Shown: one piece after another, positions 5,517 through 11,952 of the stretch
How the letters are laid out: the number at the start of each line of letters is the position of its first letter
How positions within the stretch are numbered: position 1 is the first letter of the stretch
Assembly (NCBI GenBank): GCA_015075105.1
Contig: JABTUZ010000001.1
Coordinates: forward strand, 631,001-695,000
Reading direction: 5' to 3'
Length of the DNA stretch: 64,000 nucleotides
Source: Leptospiraceae bacterium
GTDB taxonomy: Bacteria > Spirochaetota > Leptospiria > Leptospirales > Leptospiraceae
The notes under the pieces: generated by a model
Told to the model about the DNA's origin: nothing
Databases searched by the model: none
The model's input: only the letters and a program-made list of their open reading frames with translations
Made by a program: the position numbers and the translations under genes

Positions 5517-5734
5517 CTCTAAAAGAGGAAAAAAATTTCTACTATTGTAGATTTCGGCTGCGTCCTCAAAACCAAACACTCTAAAAGAGGAAAAAAATTT
5601 CTACTATTGTAGATTCAAAAAGCAAATTTGTTATTTGTAACTCTAAAAGAGGAAAAAAATTTCTACTATTGTAGATGTTGCTAACTTTTCAACTTCGTTT
5701 GCTCTAAAAGAGGAAAAAAATTTCTACTATTGTA
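5517..5734 (+). CRISPR. type V-A CRISPR array, 4 repeats and 3 spacers
   Basis: The 36-nt repeats start CTCTAAAAGAGG and end AATTTCTACTATTGTAGAT, the Cas12a crRNA handle (stem TCTAC/GTAGA, loop TATT). They lie at 5517-5552, 5579-5614, 5641-5676 and 5702-5734. The first three are identical; the last loses the final bases of the handle, which marks the leader-distal end. Spacers are 5553-5578 (26 nt), 5615-5640 (26 nt) and 5677-5701 (25 nt). The orientation agrees with cas12a. I saw no match to any spacer by eye elsewhere in the window. Confidence 0.97.
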
Positions 5735-5832
5735 ATGCCATCGGGCTAAAGACCACTGGCATGGATTCTGAAAGACATGCTAAGCTAATTGACCTATAAG
5801 AGAGAAATAAAAACTTGTTAGAATAGGGGATT

Positions 5833-6468
5833 ATGGGAAGAAGGGCACAAACTGAAACCGAGAAAGAAGAAATCCGAAATAAAATACTCGATGCAACTTT
5901 AGAGCTTATTTCCAAAGAAGGATACAAGGGATTTAGTATGAGAAAGTTGGGTCCGATGCTCGGAGTTGCACCGAAAACAATTTATAATTATTTTCAAAGC
6001 AAAGAAGAAATCTATCTACACGTCTTAACCAAGGGTTTTGATTTGCTGTATGAAGAGCTTGTTCAGTGTTCAAAATTGGAAGTGCATCCATTTCAAAAAG
6101 TTTTTGAAATTATAAAAACCTACATTAAATTCGGATTTGAAAAATCGAATTATTACGATGTTATGTTTACTTGGTATGTACCTAAATACAATGATTTTGT
6201 TGGTACTGCATTAGAGTCCTTGGCTTATAACGAATTGCAGTCTGCTTTAAAATGTTTTCAGATATTGGTAGAAAGTATTCGGCAAGTGAAAAATAATTTA
6301 TTAACAGAAGAGAGGGTGAATTTATTTTCGCTTCAACTTCTTGTTTCTGTGCACGGGATTGTGGCTCTAAGAAATAATACAATTCTTGGGTATGTACATG
6401 AAAATCCAGATTCTATAATTGAGCCATTAATTCTATCTATTTTAGATCCTTTGAATCCTAAAATATAA
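5833..6468 (+). CDS. TetR/AcrR-family transcriptional regulator
   Basis: This 211-aa protein has an N-terminal TetR helix-turn-helix (roughly residues 15-60, with GFSMRKLGPMLGVAPKTIYNYF). The ligand domain contains a VHGIVAL stretch like the WHG-type TetR C-terminal domain. Such proteins are ligand-released repressors, often of genes for hydrophobic compounds. It lies 2 kb upstream of and parallel to the glycyl radical enzyme operon, and a 23-bp palindrome suited to a TetR dimer sits in that operon's promoter region. An IS256 remnant now separates the two. The regulator-target link is inference; the family call is firm. Confidence 0.93.
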   Translation: MGRRAQTETEKEEIRNKILDATLELISKEGYKGFSMRKLGPMLGVAPKTIYNYFQSKEEIYLHVLTKGFDLLYEELVQCSKLEVHPFQKVFEIIKTYIKFGFEKSNYYDVMFTWYVPKYNDFVGTALESLAYNELQSALKCFQILVESIRQVKNNLLTEERVNLFSLQLLVSVHGIVALRNNTILGYVHENPDSIIEPLILSILDPLNPKI

Positions 6469-6601: not shown

Positions 6602-7751
6602 ATGTTAAATCTTGAGAAAAGAGAAAGAATCCGATCCAAGAGATAGTCCCAAAAATCGTTAGGGTTTGAAAAAAGAGGAACCAGCCAAAACTATGGTTTT
6701 TGGCAAAAAAATAAATAATGGAAGGTTCCCAATGAACAAACAAAACAAATCTCAATCCTCTGATCAATCACAAAAAATGAGTCTAAATTATTTTCGTACA
6801 TATGCTGTGACTGAAATAGAACGTTTCGTGCGTGAAAGCGCCGTTAAACTGAATTCGAGAAAAATAGCAGACCGAAATTTTTGGGCCATAATGGTTGATG
6901 GCATCCACATTGGAGGTGATGTAGTCGTTGTTATTCTTGGTGTTGATACGTTAGGCGAGAAGCATTTTCTATCGATTTCTCAAGGTTCTACCGAAAATAC
7001 AGAAGTAGTTCTTTCTTGTCTTGATCAGTTACGAGAAAGAGGAATCCTCTTTACTGAAAAGGTTGTTGCGGTAATCGATGGATCAAAGGCACTTAAGAAA
7101 GCTCTGGAAAATCATTTTGATAATCAGGTTGTCATCCAAAGATGTTTGAATCATAAATCATGGAACGTTGAATCAAAATTGGCAAAAAAATATCACTTCG
7201 AATTCAAGGAAAAACTTCGCCAGGCGTATGGACTCAATGACTATGATGAAGCAAAACGAGAATTCGAAAATCTTCATAATTAGCTGGGAAAGATTAGTCA
7301 TAACGCTGCCGAAAGTTTCCATGAATGCATTGATGAGTTGTTGACTTTACATAAAATAAAAATGCCCCCATCTTTACGGATTTCCTTCTATACGACAAAT
7401 CTAATTGAATCGGCATTCTCTAATCCACGCTTTAGAATGTTCAGAGTAAAACGTTGGATTAAGCAGGGAGACATGATTAAGCGTTGGGCTGGTGCTGCAT
7501 TTCTACATCAGGAACAAAAGTTCCGGAGAGTGAAAGGTTATGCGACAATCGATGATTTTTTAAAGGTATTTGTAAGGACTGAAAAATATATTGACGAAAA
7601 AGAAATTATGCAACATGCTGTATGAAAATTCCTCTGTAAACCCTAACGAAAAATGGGACATTTTCTTGATTTATCTTATTTTTTTAAAATATCAAAACAG
7701 CAAATGAAAAAGCTTTTAGACGGAAAAATTAGCCTTTCGGATCTTTTCTGA
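6602..7751 (+). pseudogene. possible small gene split by the IS256-family element
   Basis: Before the IS a frame from the ATG at 6602 reads MLNLEKRERIRSKR and closes at a stop made by the IS end. A TTGACA at 6569-6574 precedes it. After the IS (from 7660) a frame reads through DLSYFFKISKQQMKKLLDGK and ends in ISLSDLF at the TGA at 7749-7751. The two halves could be one gene of about 45 codons interrupted by the insertion. No 8-9 bp target duplication is visible to confirm this, and I recognise no family. Confidence 0.25.
6646..7659 (+). mobile_element. IS256-family (Mutator) element, inactivated
   Basis: The terminal repeats are GTCCCAAAAATCGTTAGGGTTT (6646-6667) and, in reverse complement, GTCCCATTTTTCGTTAGGGTTT (7638-7659). 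One frame from 6666 to 7625 encodes transposase pieces: the first Asp in MVDGIHIGG, the second in VAVIDGSKALKK, and the IS256 C-terminal block TTNLIESAFSN followed by VKRW. An in-frame TAG at 7281-7283 interrupts it. The whole is about 320 codons against roughly 400 in the family, and the N-terminal DNA-binding part is missing. It is a remnant. Confidence 0.9.
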
Positions 7752-8037
7752 TTATAATATATATTATGGTAGGTTAAAACTATATTAAAATACTATAATA
7801 CCCAACTTTTTCCTATTAAAATAATTTTTACTAATTTATTGAATCTTACCTGTCAATTTGTAAAAATTAGCATAAGATTGCCCTTTTTTTTAAATAAATT
7901 GTCAATTTTGACATAAATTTTCTTTTTTTGAAAGAATTTGAAAAAATACTTGACAAGTTTTAGAAGAGTAGTTAAATAACTCTTTATGTAACGCTGTTAC
8001 ATAAATAAAATAGAGATAAGATCTAAGAGGAGATAAT
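7660..8037 (+). promoter_or_regulatory. AT-rich upstream region of the glycyl radical operon with a palindromic operator
   Basis: A perfect 23-bp palindrome, TTTATGTAAC-GCT-GTTACATAAA, lies at 7983-8005. It sits just downstream of a possible promoter (TTGACA at 7950-7955, 17-base spacer, weak -10 TAAATA at 7973-7978). A second short palindrome, TGTCAATTTTGACA, is at 7900-7913. A good ribosome binding site (AGAGGAG) precedes the ATG at 8038. A repressor dimer bound to the 23-bp site would block the promoter start. Apart from the tail of the split reading frame ending at 7751, no other gene is seen. Confidence 0.6.
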
Positions 8038-11000
8038 ATGTTCCATTTTAACAAAGCCCCTACTGCCAAAACCACCCCTAAGTCGTTTACAAACTTTCTT
8101 GTAAAGTTTTTACTTCAAATCATGGCCTTCAATTATAGACTTAGACCTTCTCTAAAAAAGTATCTGAAAAGCGACGAGGGTTGGATTAATTTTACAATTG
8201 GAATTGCTACTCAAAATAAAAGTGTAGAGACCGCGATTCGTTTTCTTAATGGTAAAATTTCTATTTTAAATCATATTCCAAAAGATAGCGACGCTTCTCT
8301 AATTTTTCAAACTGACTCTGGGATTAAAAAACTTTTGAGTGCAACGCCCACAGAGCAAATATTTATGATTATGCGTAGCGAATTAATTACGCAAGGAAAT
8401 ACAAACTACCTGAATTTATTTTTCTTTTTACTCTCTCTTTTGATTTTAAAAAAGCAAAAGAAGATGATGGAACTTGAGAAAAAAAATTCTAAGATTAAGG
8501 CAGAGAAAATCGCATCCGACGGTAAAGGTGGTTTAAGTAAAGAAGCTATCCAGAAAATGGCTGAGAGGTTAGTAGGGGATTCAATTGATCCGGGAGTGAA
8601 ATATTTAAGTGACCCTTATCTTTCTAAATACAAATTGAGTGATTTTCCTCGAATTCAAGAATTTTTAGACATCCATTTTGAAGTGAAGCCGGAAGTGTGC
8701 CCCGAAAGACCAAAACTTGTAACCGATTGGTGTAAGAAGAATGGTTTTGAAAAAGATAGTACCGGAAAAGATTGGATCCCCGAACTTAGACAAGGTGAAA
8801 TTTTTAAATACCTTATGGAAAATCGTAAACCGGTTATCCGTAAAAATGACCTCATCGCAGGGACCACCACCTCAAAAGAAATCGGAGTGGTAGTTTATCC
8901 AGATAGCCATGGGATGATGATTTGGAGTGAGCTTCTCACTGTTCCTCATCGCCCTTTGAATTCTTACGATATTTCAGAGGAGACTCTCAGTATCTTACAC
9001 CATGAAGTTTTTCCTTATTGGTCAAAAAGAAATTTTAGAGAATGGGTTAGGGATAATTACAATAACCCAATAGGGCAAAAAATCGACGAAAGGTTTGCAG
9101 TGTATTTTTTATGGAAGACAGTAGCCATTTCTCATACTATACCCGACTTTCCTAAGATTTTAAAAATGGGAACTAAAGGAATTATAAAAGAAGTTGATGA
9201 AAAACTAAAAGATTCTTCTCTGAATGAAAAACAAATCGCTACTCTAAAAGGTATGAAGCTTACTCTTGAGGGCATAGCAGCGTATTCTAAAAATTTATCT
9301 AAAGAAGCAGAGAAAGAGGCGAATCTTGAGTCAAACCCAAAAAGGAAAAAAGAGTTAGAGAAAATAGCTCAAATTTGCAATACAGTTGTAGAAAATCCAG
9401 CAAGCACTTTGGATGAGGCAGTAAATGCAATGTGGATTACTTGGGTTGGACTTCATAACGAAAATACAAATGCGGGTCTTTCTTTAGGTCGTTTGGATCA
9501 GTGGCTACAGCCATACTTTGAATCTGATATGGCTAAATTAAAAACTGTAGAAGAAAGAGAAGAATACACTAAGCACGCAATAGAGCTTATTTGTGATTTT
9601 TATATGCGAGCTACAGATCACCTTCCGCTTACTCCAGATATTGCTAACTGGTATTTTGGTGGTAGCTCATCCGATCAGGCAATTACTCTTGGGGGGCTTA
9701 CTCCTGACGGAAAAGATGCTGTAAACGATATGACCTATATTTTCCTAAAGGCTACTGAGTTCTTAACAATTAGAGACCCAAATGTAAATGCACGTTTTTC
9801 TATTGGAGTAAATTCTAATACATACCTAAAAAGACTTTGCGAAGTAAATTTAATAACAGCAGGAACTCCTTCGATCCATAACGATGGTGCAGTCATTAGC
9901 TCTTTGGAACAGTATGGTTACGCAAAGGAAGATATGCGGAACTGGGCGGCTACCGGTTGTGTCGAGCCTACGTTATGCGGTATGCATATTGGACACACAA
10001 ATTTTCAGATGATGAATATGGTTGGAGCCTTAGAAATGGCTCTAAATAATGGATATCACCCGGTTATGAAATGGAGTCTCGGTCCAAAGACAGGTAGTAT
10101 TGAAAATGGAGACTTTTCGGATTTTGAGTCTTTTTTTGAAGCATTCACTAAGCAGTTTTCATTTCTAATAGACTCATCTATTGAATACAATGAGCTTCTC
10201 GCAAAAGCTCATCAGGCAATACGTCCTACCCCATTACTATCTTCTTTAATTGAAGGTACTATCGAGTCAGGTAAGGACGTTGTATGGGGTGGAGCAAAAT
10301 ACAATAGCTCAGGTGCGGCTTGCATTGGTCTTTCTGATGTTACAGACTCACTTATGGTTATTAAAAAGTTGGTGTTTGACGATAAACTAATAACCTTCCA
10401 AGAATTGAAGAGGGCTATTGACAGTGATTTTCAAATTGACTCAAGGGTGCTTTCTTTAATTAAAAGTAAGTCTCACTTTTTTGGATCAGGAAATTCAGAC
10501 TCTGTAGCTATGGCTAACCGTGTTACAAAGTTTACCCATGACTATTATAATAAATTTACAAACTACCGTGGAGGGAAATACACAGCAGGATTTTGGTCTA
10601 TGTCTAACCACGTTATATTCGGGACTTTGAGTGGTGCCTTGCCTTCAGGAAAAAGAGCTGGTAAATCTTTGACTCCGGGTCTTACTCCAAAAGGAGAGGC
10701 ATCCAATAATATCCTAGATAATTTGAGAGATGTGGCAAGTTTAGATCCAAAAAATTTAAGTAATAATATTGCGTTTAACGTAAAAGTAGTACCAAGCTAC
10801 GAAGACTCACGAGAAAAAACTGTAAATACAATGAAAGCCTATACAGAAGGGTATTTTAAAATGGGAGGAATGCAAATGCAGTTGAATGTAGTTACTGTAG
10901 ATACGCTAAAAGATGCAATGATTCACCCTGAAAACTATCGTAACCTTCTTGTGCGTATTTCGGGTTATAATGCGTACTTTGTTACTTTAAATAAAGATAT

Positions 11001-11043
11001 GCAGCTTGAGCTAATAGAAAGGTCTTCCTTTGGCTTGAATTAG
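8038..11043 (+). CDS. SCP2-domain-fused glycyl radical enzyme (PFL/diol-dehydratase superfamily)
   Basis: At 1001 aa this is well above the usual 780-850 aa of the family. Residues ~45-140 resemble an SCP2 sterol-carrier domain (INFTIGIATQNKSVETAIRF, then DASLIFQTDSGIKKLL). A charged linker (~140-190) leads to the glycyl radical barrel. The active-site loop has TGCVEPTLCG with Cys641 and Glu643; Cys-X-Glu is the signature of dehydratase, decarboxylase and C-N lyase members and differs from the Cys-Cys pair of pyruvate formate-lyase. The radical site is RISGYNAYF with Gly976. The activase follows 9 bases downstream. The substrate is unknown; the lipid-binding domain suggests a hydrophobic compound. 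This is an oxygen-sensitive cytoplasmic enzyme. Confidence 0.92.
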   Translation: MFHFNKAPTAKTTPKSFTNFLVKFLLQIMAFNYRLRPSLKKYLKSDEGWINFTIGIATQNKSVETAIRFLNGKISILNHIPKDSDASLIFQTDSGIKKLLSATPTEQIFMIMRSELITQGNTNYLNLFFFLLSLLILKKQKKMMELEKKNSKIKAEKIASDGKGGLSKEAIQKMAERLVGDSIDPGVKYLSDPYLSKYKLSDFPRIQEFLDIHFEVKPEVCPERPKLVTDWCKKNGFEKDSTGKDWIPELRQGEIFKYLMENRKPVIRKNDLIAGTTTSKEIGVVVYPDSHGMMIWSELLTVPHRPLNSYDISEETLSILHHEVFPYWSKRNFREWVRDNYNNPIGQKIDERFAVYFLWKTVAISHTIPDFPKILKMGTKGIIKEVDEKLKDSSLNEKQIATLKGMKLTLEGIAAYSKNLSKEAEKEANLESNPKRKKELEKIAQICNTVVENPASTLDEAVNAMWITWVGLHNENTNAGLSLGRLDQWLQPYFESDMAKLKTVEEREEYTKHAIELICDFYMRATDHLPLTPDIANWYFGGSSSDQAITLGGLTPDGKDAVNDMTYIFLKATEFLTIRDPNVNARFSIGVNSNTYLKRLCEVNLITAGTPSIHNDGAVISSLEQYGYAKEDMRNWAATGCVEPTLCGMHIGHTNFQMMNMVGALEMALNNGYHPVMKWSLGPKTGSIENGDFSDFESFFEAFTKQFSFLIDSSIEYNELLAKAHQAIRPTPLLSSLIEGTIESGKDVVWGGAKYNSSGAACIGLSDVTDSLMVIKKLVFDDKLITFQELKRAIDSDFQIDSRVLSLIKSKSHFFGSGNSDSVAMANRVTKFTHDYYNKFTNYRGGKYTAGFWSMSNHVIFGTLSGALPSGKRAGKSLTPGLTPKGEASNNILDNLRDVASLDPKNLSNNIAFNVKVVPSYEDSREKTVNTMKAYTEGYFKMGGMQMQLNVVTVDTLKDAMIHPENYRNLLVRISGYNAYFVTLNKDMQLELIERSSFGLN

Positions 11044-11052
11044 AAATTTCAG

Positions 11053-11952
11053 ATGAACGAAGCGGCAATCTTTGAAATTAAAGGTCATTCTTTGGATGAT
11101 GGCCCAGGAATTAGAACTGTAATTTTTTTCAAAGGGTGCCCTCTATCTTGCGTGTGGTGTCACAACCCAGAGTCTAAAAAAGCAAAATTTGAGCTTTCTT
11201 TTTACTTAGAAAAGTGCTCCTCCTTAGGGAATTGCTTGAAAGTTTGTCCGGAAAATGCCTTAGACAAAAATAACCCAAATTTTATAGATAGAGATAGGTG
11301 CACTTCTTGTTTTAAGTGTGTAGAAACTTGTGACTCAGGAGCTTTATCTATTGTAGGAGAAAATATTTCTGTTGAAAAAATTATTTCTGTAATCGAGAAC
11401 TATATTCCGTTTTATGAATCGTCGGGAGGTGGAGTTACTTTATCTGGTGGTGAGTTTAGTATGTATCCTAACTTTTGTGAAAACCTTCTAAAAGAGATTA
11501 AAAAGAAAAATATTCATGTTCTAATAGAGACTTCAGGACAGTTCAATTTTTCTACGTTTGAAAAAAGTATTCTTCCATACATAGACCAGATTTATTATGA
11601 TATAAAAATCTATGACGAAGATCATCATAAAAAATTTTGTGGAATTTCTAATAAAAAAATTCTGGATAATTTTGAAAAATTGCACAGATTTCACATTGAT
11701 AAAAAAATTCATCTTACTCCAAGGACTCCTTTGGTTCCAAATATAACTGCAACAAAAGAAAATTTAGAAGCTATTGCTAATTTCTATCGTAAAAATAAAG
11801 TAAAAAATATTTCACTTTTACCATACAATCCTCTTTGGAGTAATAAATCTGGAAAATTAGGAATTAGCTTAGATTATAAAAATAATTCTTGGATGACTAA
11901 AAAAGAAATCGAAGATTGTAGATTGGTGTTTCAAGATTTTGAAATTGTTTAG
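11053..11952 (+). CDS. glycyl radical enzyme activase (radical SAM, PflA-like)
   Basis: This 299-aa enzyme uses S-adenosylmethionine and an iron-sulfur cluster to put the radical on Gly976 of the upstream partner. The radical SAM motif is FKGCPLSCVWCHNPES (Cys-X3-Cys-X2-Cys). Two further ferredoxin-like clusters follow, CSSLGNCLKVCPENAL and CTSCFKCVETCDSGAL, as in activases of non-PFL glycyl radical enzymes. The GGGVTLSGGE motif for SAM binding is present. It is the second gene of the operon and ends at 11952. Assignment is firm; specificity follows from the neighbour. Confidence 0.96.
   Translation: MNEAAIFEIKGHSLDDGPGIRTVIFFKGCPLSCVWCHNPESKKAKFELSFYLEKCSSLGNCLKVCPENALDKNNPNFIDRDRCTSCFKCVETCDSGALSIVGENISVEKIISVIENYIPFYESSGGGVTLSGGEFSMYPNFCENLLKEIKKKNIHVLIETSGQFNFSTFEKSILPYIDQIYYDIKIYDEDHHKKFCGISNKKILDNFEKLHRFHIDKKIHLTPRTPLVPNITATKENLEAIANFYRKNKVKNISLLPYNPLWSNKSGKLGISLDYKNNSWMTKKEIEDCRLVFQDFEIV

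Follow-up and report, generated by a model that had tools for sequence, protein, structure and literature searches.

Organization of the locus

The window, that is, the whole 64,000-nucleotide stretch of Leptospiraceae DNA analysed here, carries a gene for a TetR-family regulator (tetR) upstream of, and on the same strand as, an operon encoding a glycyl radical enzyme (GRE) and its activase. Regulator gene and operon are 1.5 kb apart, with the remnant of an insertion sequence (IS) between them. The regulator gene, the IS remnant and a perfect 23-bp palindrome in front of the operon had been described in an earlier note, and all of these elements were found as described. The features, in window positions, are as follows.

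5833–6468, forward strand: TetR-family regulator of 211 residues, the proposed repressor (N-terminal helix-turn-helix, PF00440 TetR_N, 48.9 bits against a cut-off of 24; orthologues beside the same GRE)
6646–7659, forward strand: IS256-type (Mutator family) remnant (PF00872 Transposase_mut; a TAG stop within the transposase frame; terminal inverted repeats imperfect)
7950–7977, forward strand: candidate promoter read from the sequence (TTGACA at 7950–7955, 16 bp, TTAAAT at 7972–7977, a weak -10)
7983–8005, no strand assigned: predicted operator, the 23-bp palindrome TTTATGTAAC-GCT-GTTACATAAA with the conserved core AACGCTGTT at 7990–7998 (matrix from relatives)
8028–8032, forward strand: probable ribosome-binding site (RBS) AGGAG of the GRE gene, from the sequence
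8038–11043, forward strand: GRE of 1001 residues (PF02901, PF01228; alignment; structure model and PDB matches)
8086–8487, forward strand: predicted SCP2-like (sterol carrier) N-terminal domain of the GRE, residues ~17–150 (structure search; profile matches in the family)
11053–11952, forward strand: radical SAM GRE activase of 299 residues (TIGR02494, 296.2 bits against a cut-off of 174.35)

No target duplication was seen flanking the IS256-type remnant. Just upstream of tetR, positions 5517–5737 hold a four-repeat CRISPR array, the last, degenerate repeat of which ends ~95 bp before the tetR start. Elsewhere in the window, by eye, a 540-residue ORF (183–1805) resembles the C-terminal part of a Cas12a-type nuclease, and a 28-bp perfect palindrome (GTAGGGGTTGAAAATTTTCAACCCCTAC, 1896–1923) lies beside a 176-residue minus-strand ORF resembling a REP-type transposase.

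Palindrome and promoter context

The 23-mer is the sole match to itself in the window at up to three mismatches, and none of 100 shuffles contained a match. The window contains six perfect palindromes with arms of at least 10 bases and a spacer of at most 8, where 12 shuffles averaged 1.6; when the 338-bp region 7700–8037 was shuffled 3000 times, 99 of the resulting sequences held a comparable palindrome. A palindrome of unspecified sequence at this place is thus only modestly unusual, and palindrome statistics were set aside as proof of an operator; it is the comparison with relatives, presented below, that makes the operator reading strong.

The earlier note had placed the palindrome over the expected transcription start of the operon. 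This is plausible, in that transcription would begin near 7984 if the promoter at 7950–7977 were used; its -10 box is weak, however, and the consensus promoter scan reports TTGACA-18-AAGAAT at 7908–7937 instead. In the promoter and terminator scans, match counts were no higher than in shuffles.

Distribution and gene order in relatives

Full-length orthologues of the GRE are 58–67% identical to it and come mostly from Desulfobacterota. When 61 genomes of its own phylum, the source genome included, were searched, five had any GRE match at E 1e-50; apart from the source, a full-length orthologue was present in a single one (G053, 59% identity), and the gene is thus atypical for the phylum. A species-level genome collection supplied 25 further loci with GRE orthologues, nearly all from Desulfobacterota. 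The window enzyme groups with those of Desulfatibacillum and Desulfosudis in the GRE tree with moderate support (94/84), a position that would fit lateral gain.

For the analysis of gene neighbourhoods, 26 GRE loci were used, namely the 25 from the species-level collection (L036, a 40-residue match, was left out) and L004 from the 61-genome search. Half of them, 13, have an orthologue of the window TetR (33–45% identity) next to the orthologous GRE and/or activase; many of the other 13 are cut contigs. The gene order is TetR–activase–GRE in Desulfobacterota and TetR–GRE–activase, matching the window, in the same-phylum genome G053; in these relatives, which lack the IS, tetR and the operon are adjacent. 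A paralogous second TetR and GRE pair was also observed in L056, L057, L058, L060, L074 and L080, and its tetR has a site of the same type nearby; its GREs comprise 1010–1022 residues where they could be read whole and are without an adjacent activase match.

A conserved dyad accompanies the regulator

Where the orthologous operon has retained an adjacent TetR gene, the core of the palindrome is retained as well: AAC-RSY-GTT was found upstream of tetR in 13 of 13 TetR/GRE loci, at most ~210 bp from the start codon. The relatives' site mostly reads GTAAC/TCAAC-RSY-GTTAC, followed 14 bp on by a second dyad that is missing at the window site. Members of the window's GRE clade (support 94/84) have GTAAC-GTTAC, as in the window, and the larger Desulfobacterota clade has TCAAC-GTTAC. 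No core site was found at L021 and L027, which keep the GRE and in which no adjacent TetR orthologue was seen, and the GRE of L024 has no site among the high-scoring upstream regions.

In ten of 14 relatives' sites, TTGAC stands immediately 5' of the dyad, which places the dyad between the -35 and -10 boxes, where a bound protein would cover it. This position bears on whether the element might instead work at the RNA level, with a hairpin in the 5' leader affecting stability or translation of the GRE mRNA. Folding of the window RNA does give a stem of 10 bp closed by a loop of 3 bases (z -3.1 versus shuffles), located between the likely transcription start and the RBS. In most relatives, however, the element lies just past the -35 box and would be largely untranscribed; the perfect arms around the core span just 3–6 bp in the 14 relatives, so that the hairpin is not conserved, and no Rfam family matches the element. 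The RNA reading is hence disfavoured as highly improbable.

The site stands before tetR in the relatives, as in an autoregulated operon, whereas in the window it stands before the GRE alone. The genome of L028 shares the window layout, with a two-dyad pair directly before the GRE and the best TetR (L070, 38% identity) elsewhere and without a site. This recurrence, which repeats the absence of a site before the best TetR, argues against the window site being the relic of a former operator, with regulation decaying after IS insertion and rearrangement had cut the link between tetR and the operon. The IS remnant between the genes, the absence of an operator before tetR and the missing second dyad would fit such decay, but the window arms are the most symmetric of all (10 bp versus 3–6 bp in relatives), which is not expected of a decaying site, and the TetR (211 residues), GRE and activase frames are intact. 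We regard a relic as extremely unlikely.

A weight matrix was built from the 14 relatives' sites, with the window site excluded. In the window, positions 7987–8001 scored 16.9 bits and ranked first in 64 kb, followed by a score of 10.65 inside the GRE gene; scores as high as 16.9 occurred twice in 6 Mb of Markov sequence. The matrix was then applied to TetR genes outside it, with a 10-bit threshold that was chosen after background scores had been seen. At least 10 bits were reached by 22 of 24 such genes whose locus contains a GRE or activase (17/18 and 5/6 in two held-out groups), compared with one of 12 whose locus does not (1/6 and 0/6). The first group was drawn from 30 loci, with 17 further matches of the same search lying outside these 30; L086, L087, L089, L094 and L095 remained uncounted, being in the matrix, and L088 was counted in the second group. 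The latter was drawn from 20 loci, 12 of which entered the count (L067 by way of its duplicate L088), leaving out L066 (the source genome), L073 (identical to L004), L076, L077, L081, L082, L084 and L085. L113 and L115 duplicate sites already met in the two-dyad genome search described below, which are outside the matrix. The two misses, L096 and L083, are neighbours of a GRE that lack a site; L106 scores above the threshold although its locus, a short one, contains no GRE.

Among the 186 ORF upstream regions of 20 loci, 20 scored at least 12 bits and the other 166 reached at most 9.6. All of the former except L061 are TetR/GRE sites or belong to divergent neighbours that share them. The full pattern as fixed from the window, TGTAACNNNGTTACA, occurred with up to two mismatches in nine of 17 TetR upstream regions, versus three of 120 control regions. 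Five of the 17 did no better than shuffles, as the outer bases differ; this window-derived pattern fails for the TCAAC clade and was therefore rejected as the sole test, the matrix from relatives being used as well.

Rarity of the site in genomes

The search of the source genome found the palindrome in few other places and not widespread at unrelated genes. At up to three mismatches the whole 23-mer has one other place (three mismatches), and TGTAACNNNGTTACA at up to one mismatch likewise has one, within an ORF; the AGTAACTCTGTTACA place on contig C2 falls inside an ORF. Within its 3.4 Mb, the genome has two copies of the core TAACRSYGTTA, compared with 15 places for the reversed control. The core copy outside the GRE promoter, C1:45501–45511 (L116/L118; L118 4002–4012), lies 228 bp before icmF, which encodes a fused acyl-CoA mutase, and could be either a further target or a chance occurrence. 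The second GRE of the source genome (C1:1491674, 31% identical) is without a convincing site (best score 10.05, L065).

Of 14 mismatch-free copies of the two-dyad pattern in the genomes of 16 relatives, 13 stand at a TetR and/or GRE of the same family. One mismatch added five places, of which three are the predicted operators of L015, L018 and L020. The pattern is absent from four of the 16 genomes. The exception among the perfect sites, L061 5941–5963, stands in front of an operon for an ABC transporter rather than a GRE; a distant TetR gene follows 4 kb away.

These distributions also bear on whether the site serves another regulator, either an anaerobic sensor of the CRP/FNR type or a second TetR. 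Half-sites of the GTAAC-GTTAC form resemble those of CRP/FNR-type regulators of anaerobic metabolism, and expression of an oxygen-sensitive radical enzyme is expected to be shut down when oxygen is present. Many sites would nonetheless be expected for a global oxygen regulator, and the present site is almost absent elsewhere in the genomes and tracks the TetR subfamily, as the held-out counts indicate. As to a second TetR, the window TetR is the sole match in the source genome to the query P0002 at E ≤ 1e-10. Use of the site by another regulator thus appears very improbable.

The TetR regulator and known systems

The earlier note had seen no second copy of the palindrome before tetR, and this was confirmed: when the 300 and the 600 bp preceding 5833 were searched, the best match to TGTAACNNNGTTACA had four mismatches in 12 positions, which for the 300-bp region is the level of shuffles. 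TetR-family regulators commonly, though not obligatorily, bind their own promoter, and the relatives have such a site there, but none was found in the 600 bp before the window gene. Since the site in the window lineage stands before the GRE, with none before tetR, autoregulation seems to have been lost or never to have existed in this lineage. The ligand and dimer domain PF13305 (TetR_C_33) scored 26.4 bits in the window TetR, against a cut-off of 26.8, and 37.4 bits in the Desulfatibacillum alkenivorans orthologue.

The best family models for the window TetR include regulators of lipid metabolism (FadR, KstR and FasR), all of them far below the family cut-off. FadR (Bacillus) and FasR (mycobacteria), which regulate fatty-acid metabolism, rank among the best models for both the window TetR and the D. 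alkenivorans orthologue over the DNA-binding half; the matches leave the ligand half uncovered and fall far short of the curated cut-offs (39.1 of 200 bits for FadR; 50 of 330 bits), so that the window TetR does not reach the whole-protein score of a FadR orthologue. KstR of mycobacteria is matched over the DNA-binding part (E 1.4e-9), with 37.8 bits against a cut-off of 280, which is too low for an orthologue. The window TetR also differs from KstR in that its proposed target is a radical-enzyme operon and its site is nearly single-copy. According to the published report (PMC1995591), KstR is a TetR-type repressor of lipid degradation genes, the dyad of which, TnnAACnnGTTnnA, overlaps the promoter; that operator shares AAC/GTT half-sites with the window site, its spacer being 2 rather than 3 bases.

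The glycyl radical enzyme

All features of the GRE class were found in the window enzyme: a PFL-like domain (PF02901, 551.7 bits), an active-site cysteine, a C-terminal glycyl radical motif (PF01228, 80.3 bits) and an adjoining activase. The motifs GCVEP (Cys641, Glu643) and VRISGYNAYF (Gly976) are invariant across 24 aligned family members. The enzyme scored below every NCBIfam equivalog cut-off for known GRE subclasses (hydroxyproline dehydratase, CutC, PFL, decarboxylases). Glycerol/1,2-propanediol dehydratase and choline lyase, which are among the best PDB matches, resemble it in fold and in the GCVE and glycyl radical motifs but are just 26–29% identical, and the window enzyme adds the SCP2-like N-terminal domain. 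In the alignment with glycerol dehydratase, the cysteine, the glutamate and the active-site histidine are kept, and His281, Ser282 and Asp447, which we take to be glycerol-binding residues, align by eye with Ala479, Gly480 and Asn655.

Residues 17–150 are predicted to adopt an SCP2 fold (Foldseek match 6h6p_A, UbiJ-SCP2, E 1.5e-5). For this domain, VIA gave Z scores of up to 13.6 (2.1 Å, 104 residues) with the SCP2-type region of an alkylsulfatase, and of 12.5 at 2.5 Å over 112 residues with SCP2. The profile PF02036 reaches E ≤ 1 in six of 24 family members (best 2.1e-5), the window GRE itself being without a match at this level. Among the neighbouring genes, reductases recur, either extended SDR (HpnA/OleD-like) or classical SDR; they lie between activase and GRE in L018, L012 and L015 and follow the GRE operon in L026, L014 and L028. 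The predicted SCP2 fold suggests chemistry on a hydrophobic molecule, which to our knowledge would be uncommon among eliminase-type GREs characterised so far. That both substrate and inducer are hydrophobic is our guess, based on this fold, the diol/glycerol dehydratase-like remainder with its replaced glycerol-binding positions, the likeness of the TetR to lipid regulators and the SDR neighbours. In the open-access literature, no paper was found on an SCP2–GRE fusion, nor any that joins a glycyl radical enzyme, the TetR family and an operator.

Proposed mechanism and significance

Taken with the comparison of relatives, the earlier proposal that the palindrome is an operator for the upstream TetR gains strong support: 7983–8005 is very probably the operator of the regulator at 5833–6468. 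A dyad in or near the promoter that is conserved together with its cognate regulator, as expected of a TetR-family operator, was found here. We infer that a TetR dimer would sit on TTTATGTAAC-GCT-GTTACATAAA at the start of the GRE–activase transcript, at a position that in the relatives lies inside the promoter. The bound dimer would block RNA polymerase sterically and keep the operon off, until a small-molecule ligand, most likely hydrophobic, freed the TetR from DNA and allowed GRE and activase to be expressed. Several points speak against this assignment, namely the misses at L096 and L083, the site of L106 in a locus without a GRE, the context of L061, the weaker result with the window-derived pattern, the choice of the 10-bit threshold after background scores were known, the 1.5-kb gap with the IS, and the missing tetR site and second dyad.

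The operator itself would be an ordinary kind of gene switch; the enzyme of unusual build behind it is more interesting. In a wider picture, which we put forward tentatively, a dedicated TetR may sense a lipid-like molecule and control an undescribed GRE class that, with its own SCP2 domain, could use radical chemistry in the absence of oxygen to convert a long-chain or membrane-derived substrate, with switch, two-dyad operator and enzyme travelling together across phyla. The predicted operator defines a regulon and thereby offers a handle on an uncharacterised radical enzyme. Because anaerobes such as D. alkenivorans retain TetR, site and enzyme as a set, the ligand that releases the TetR, once found, would point to the substrate or product of the GRE.
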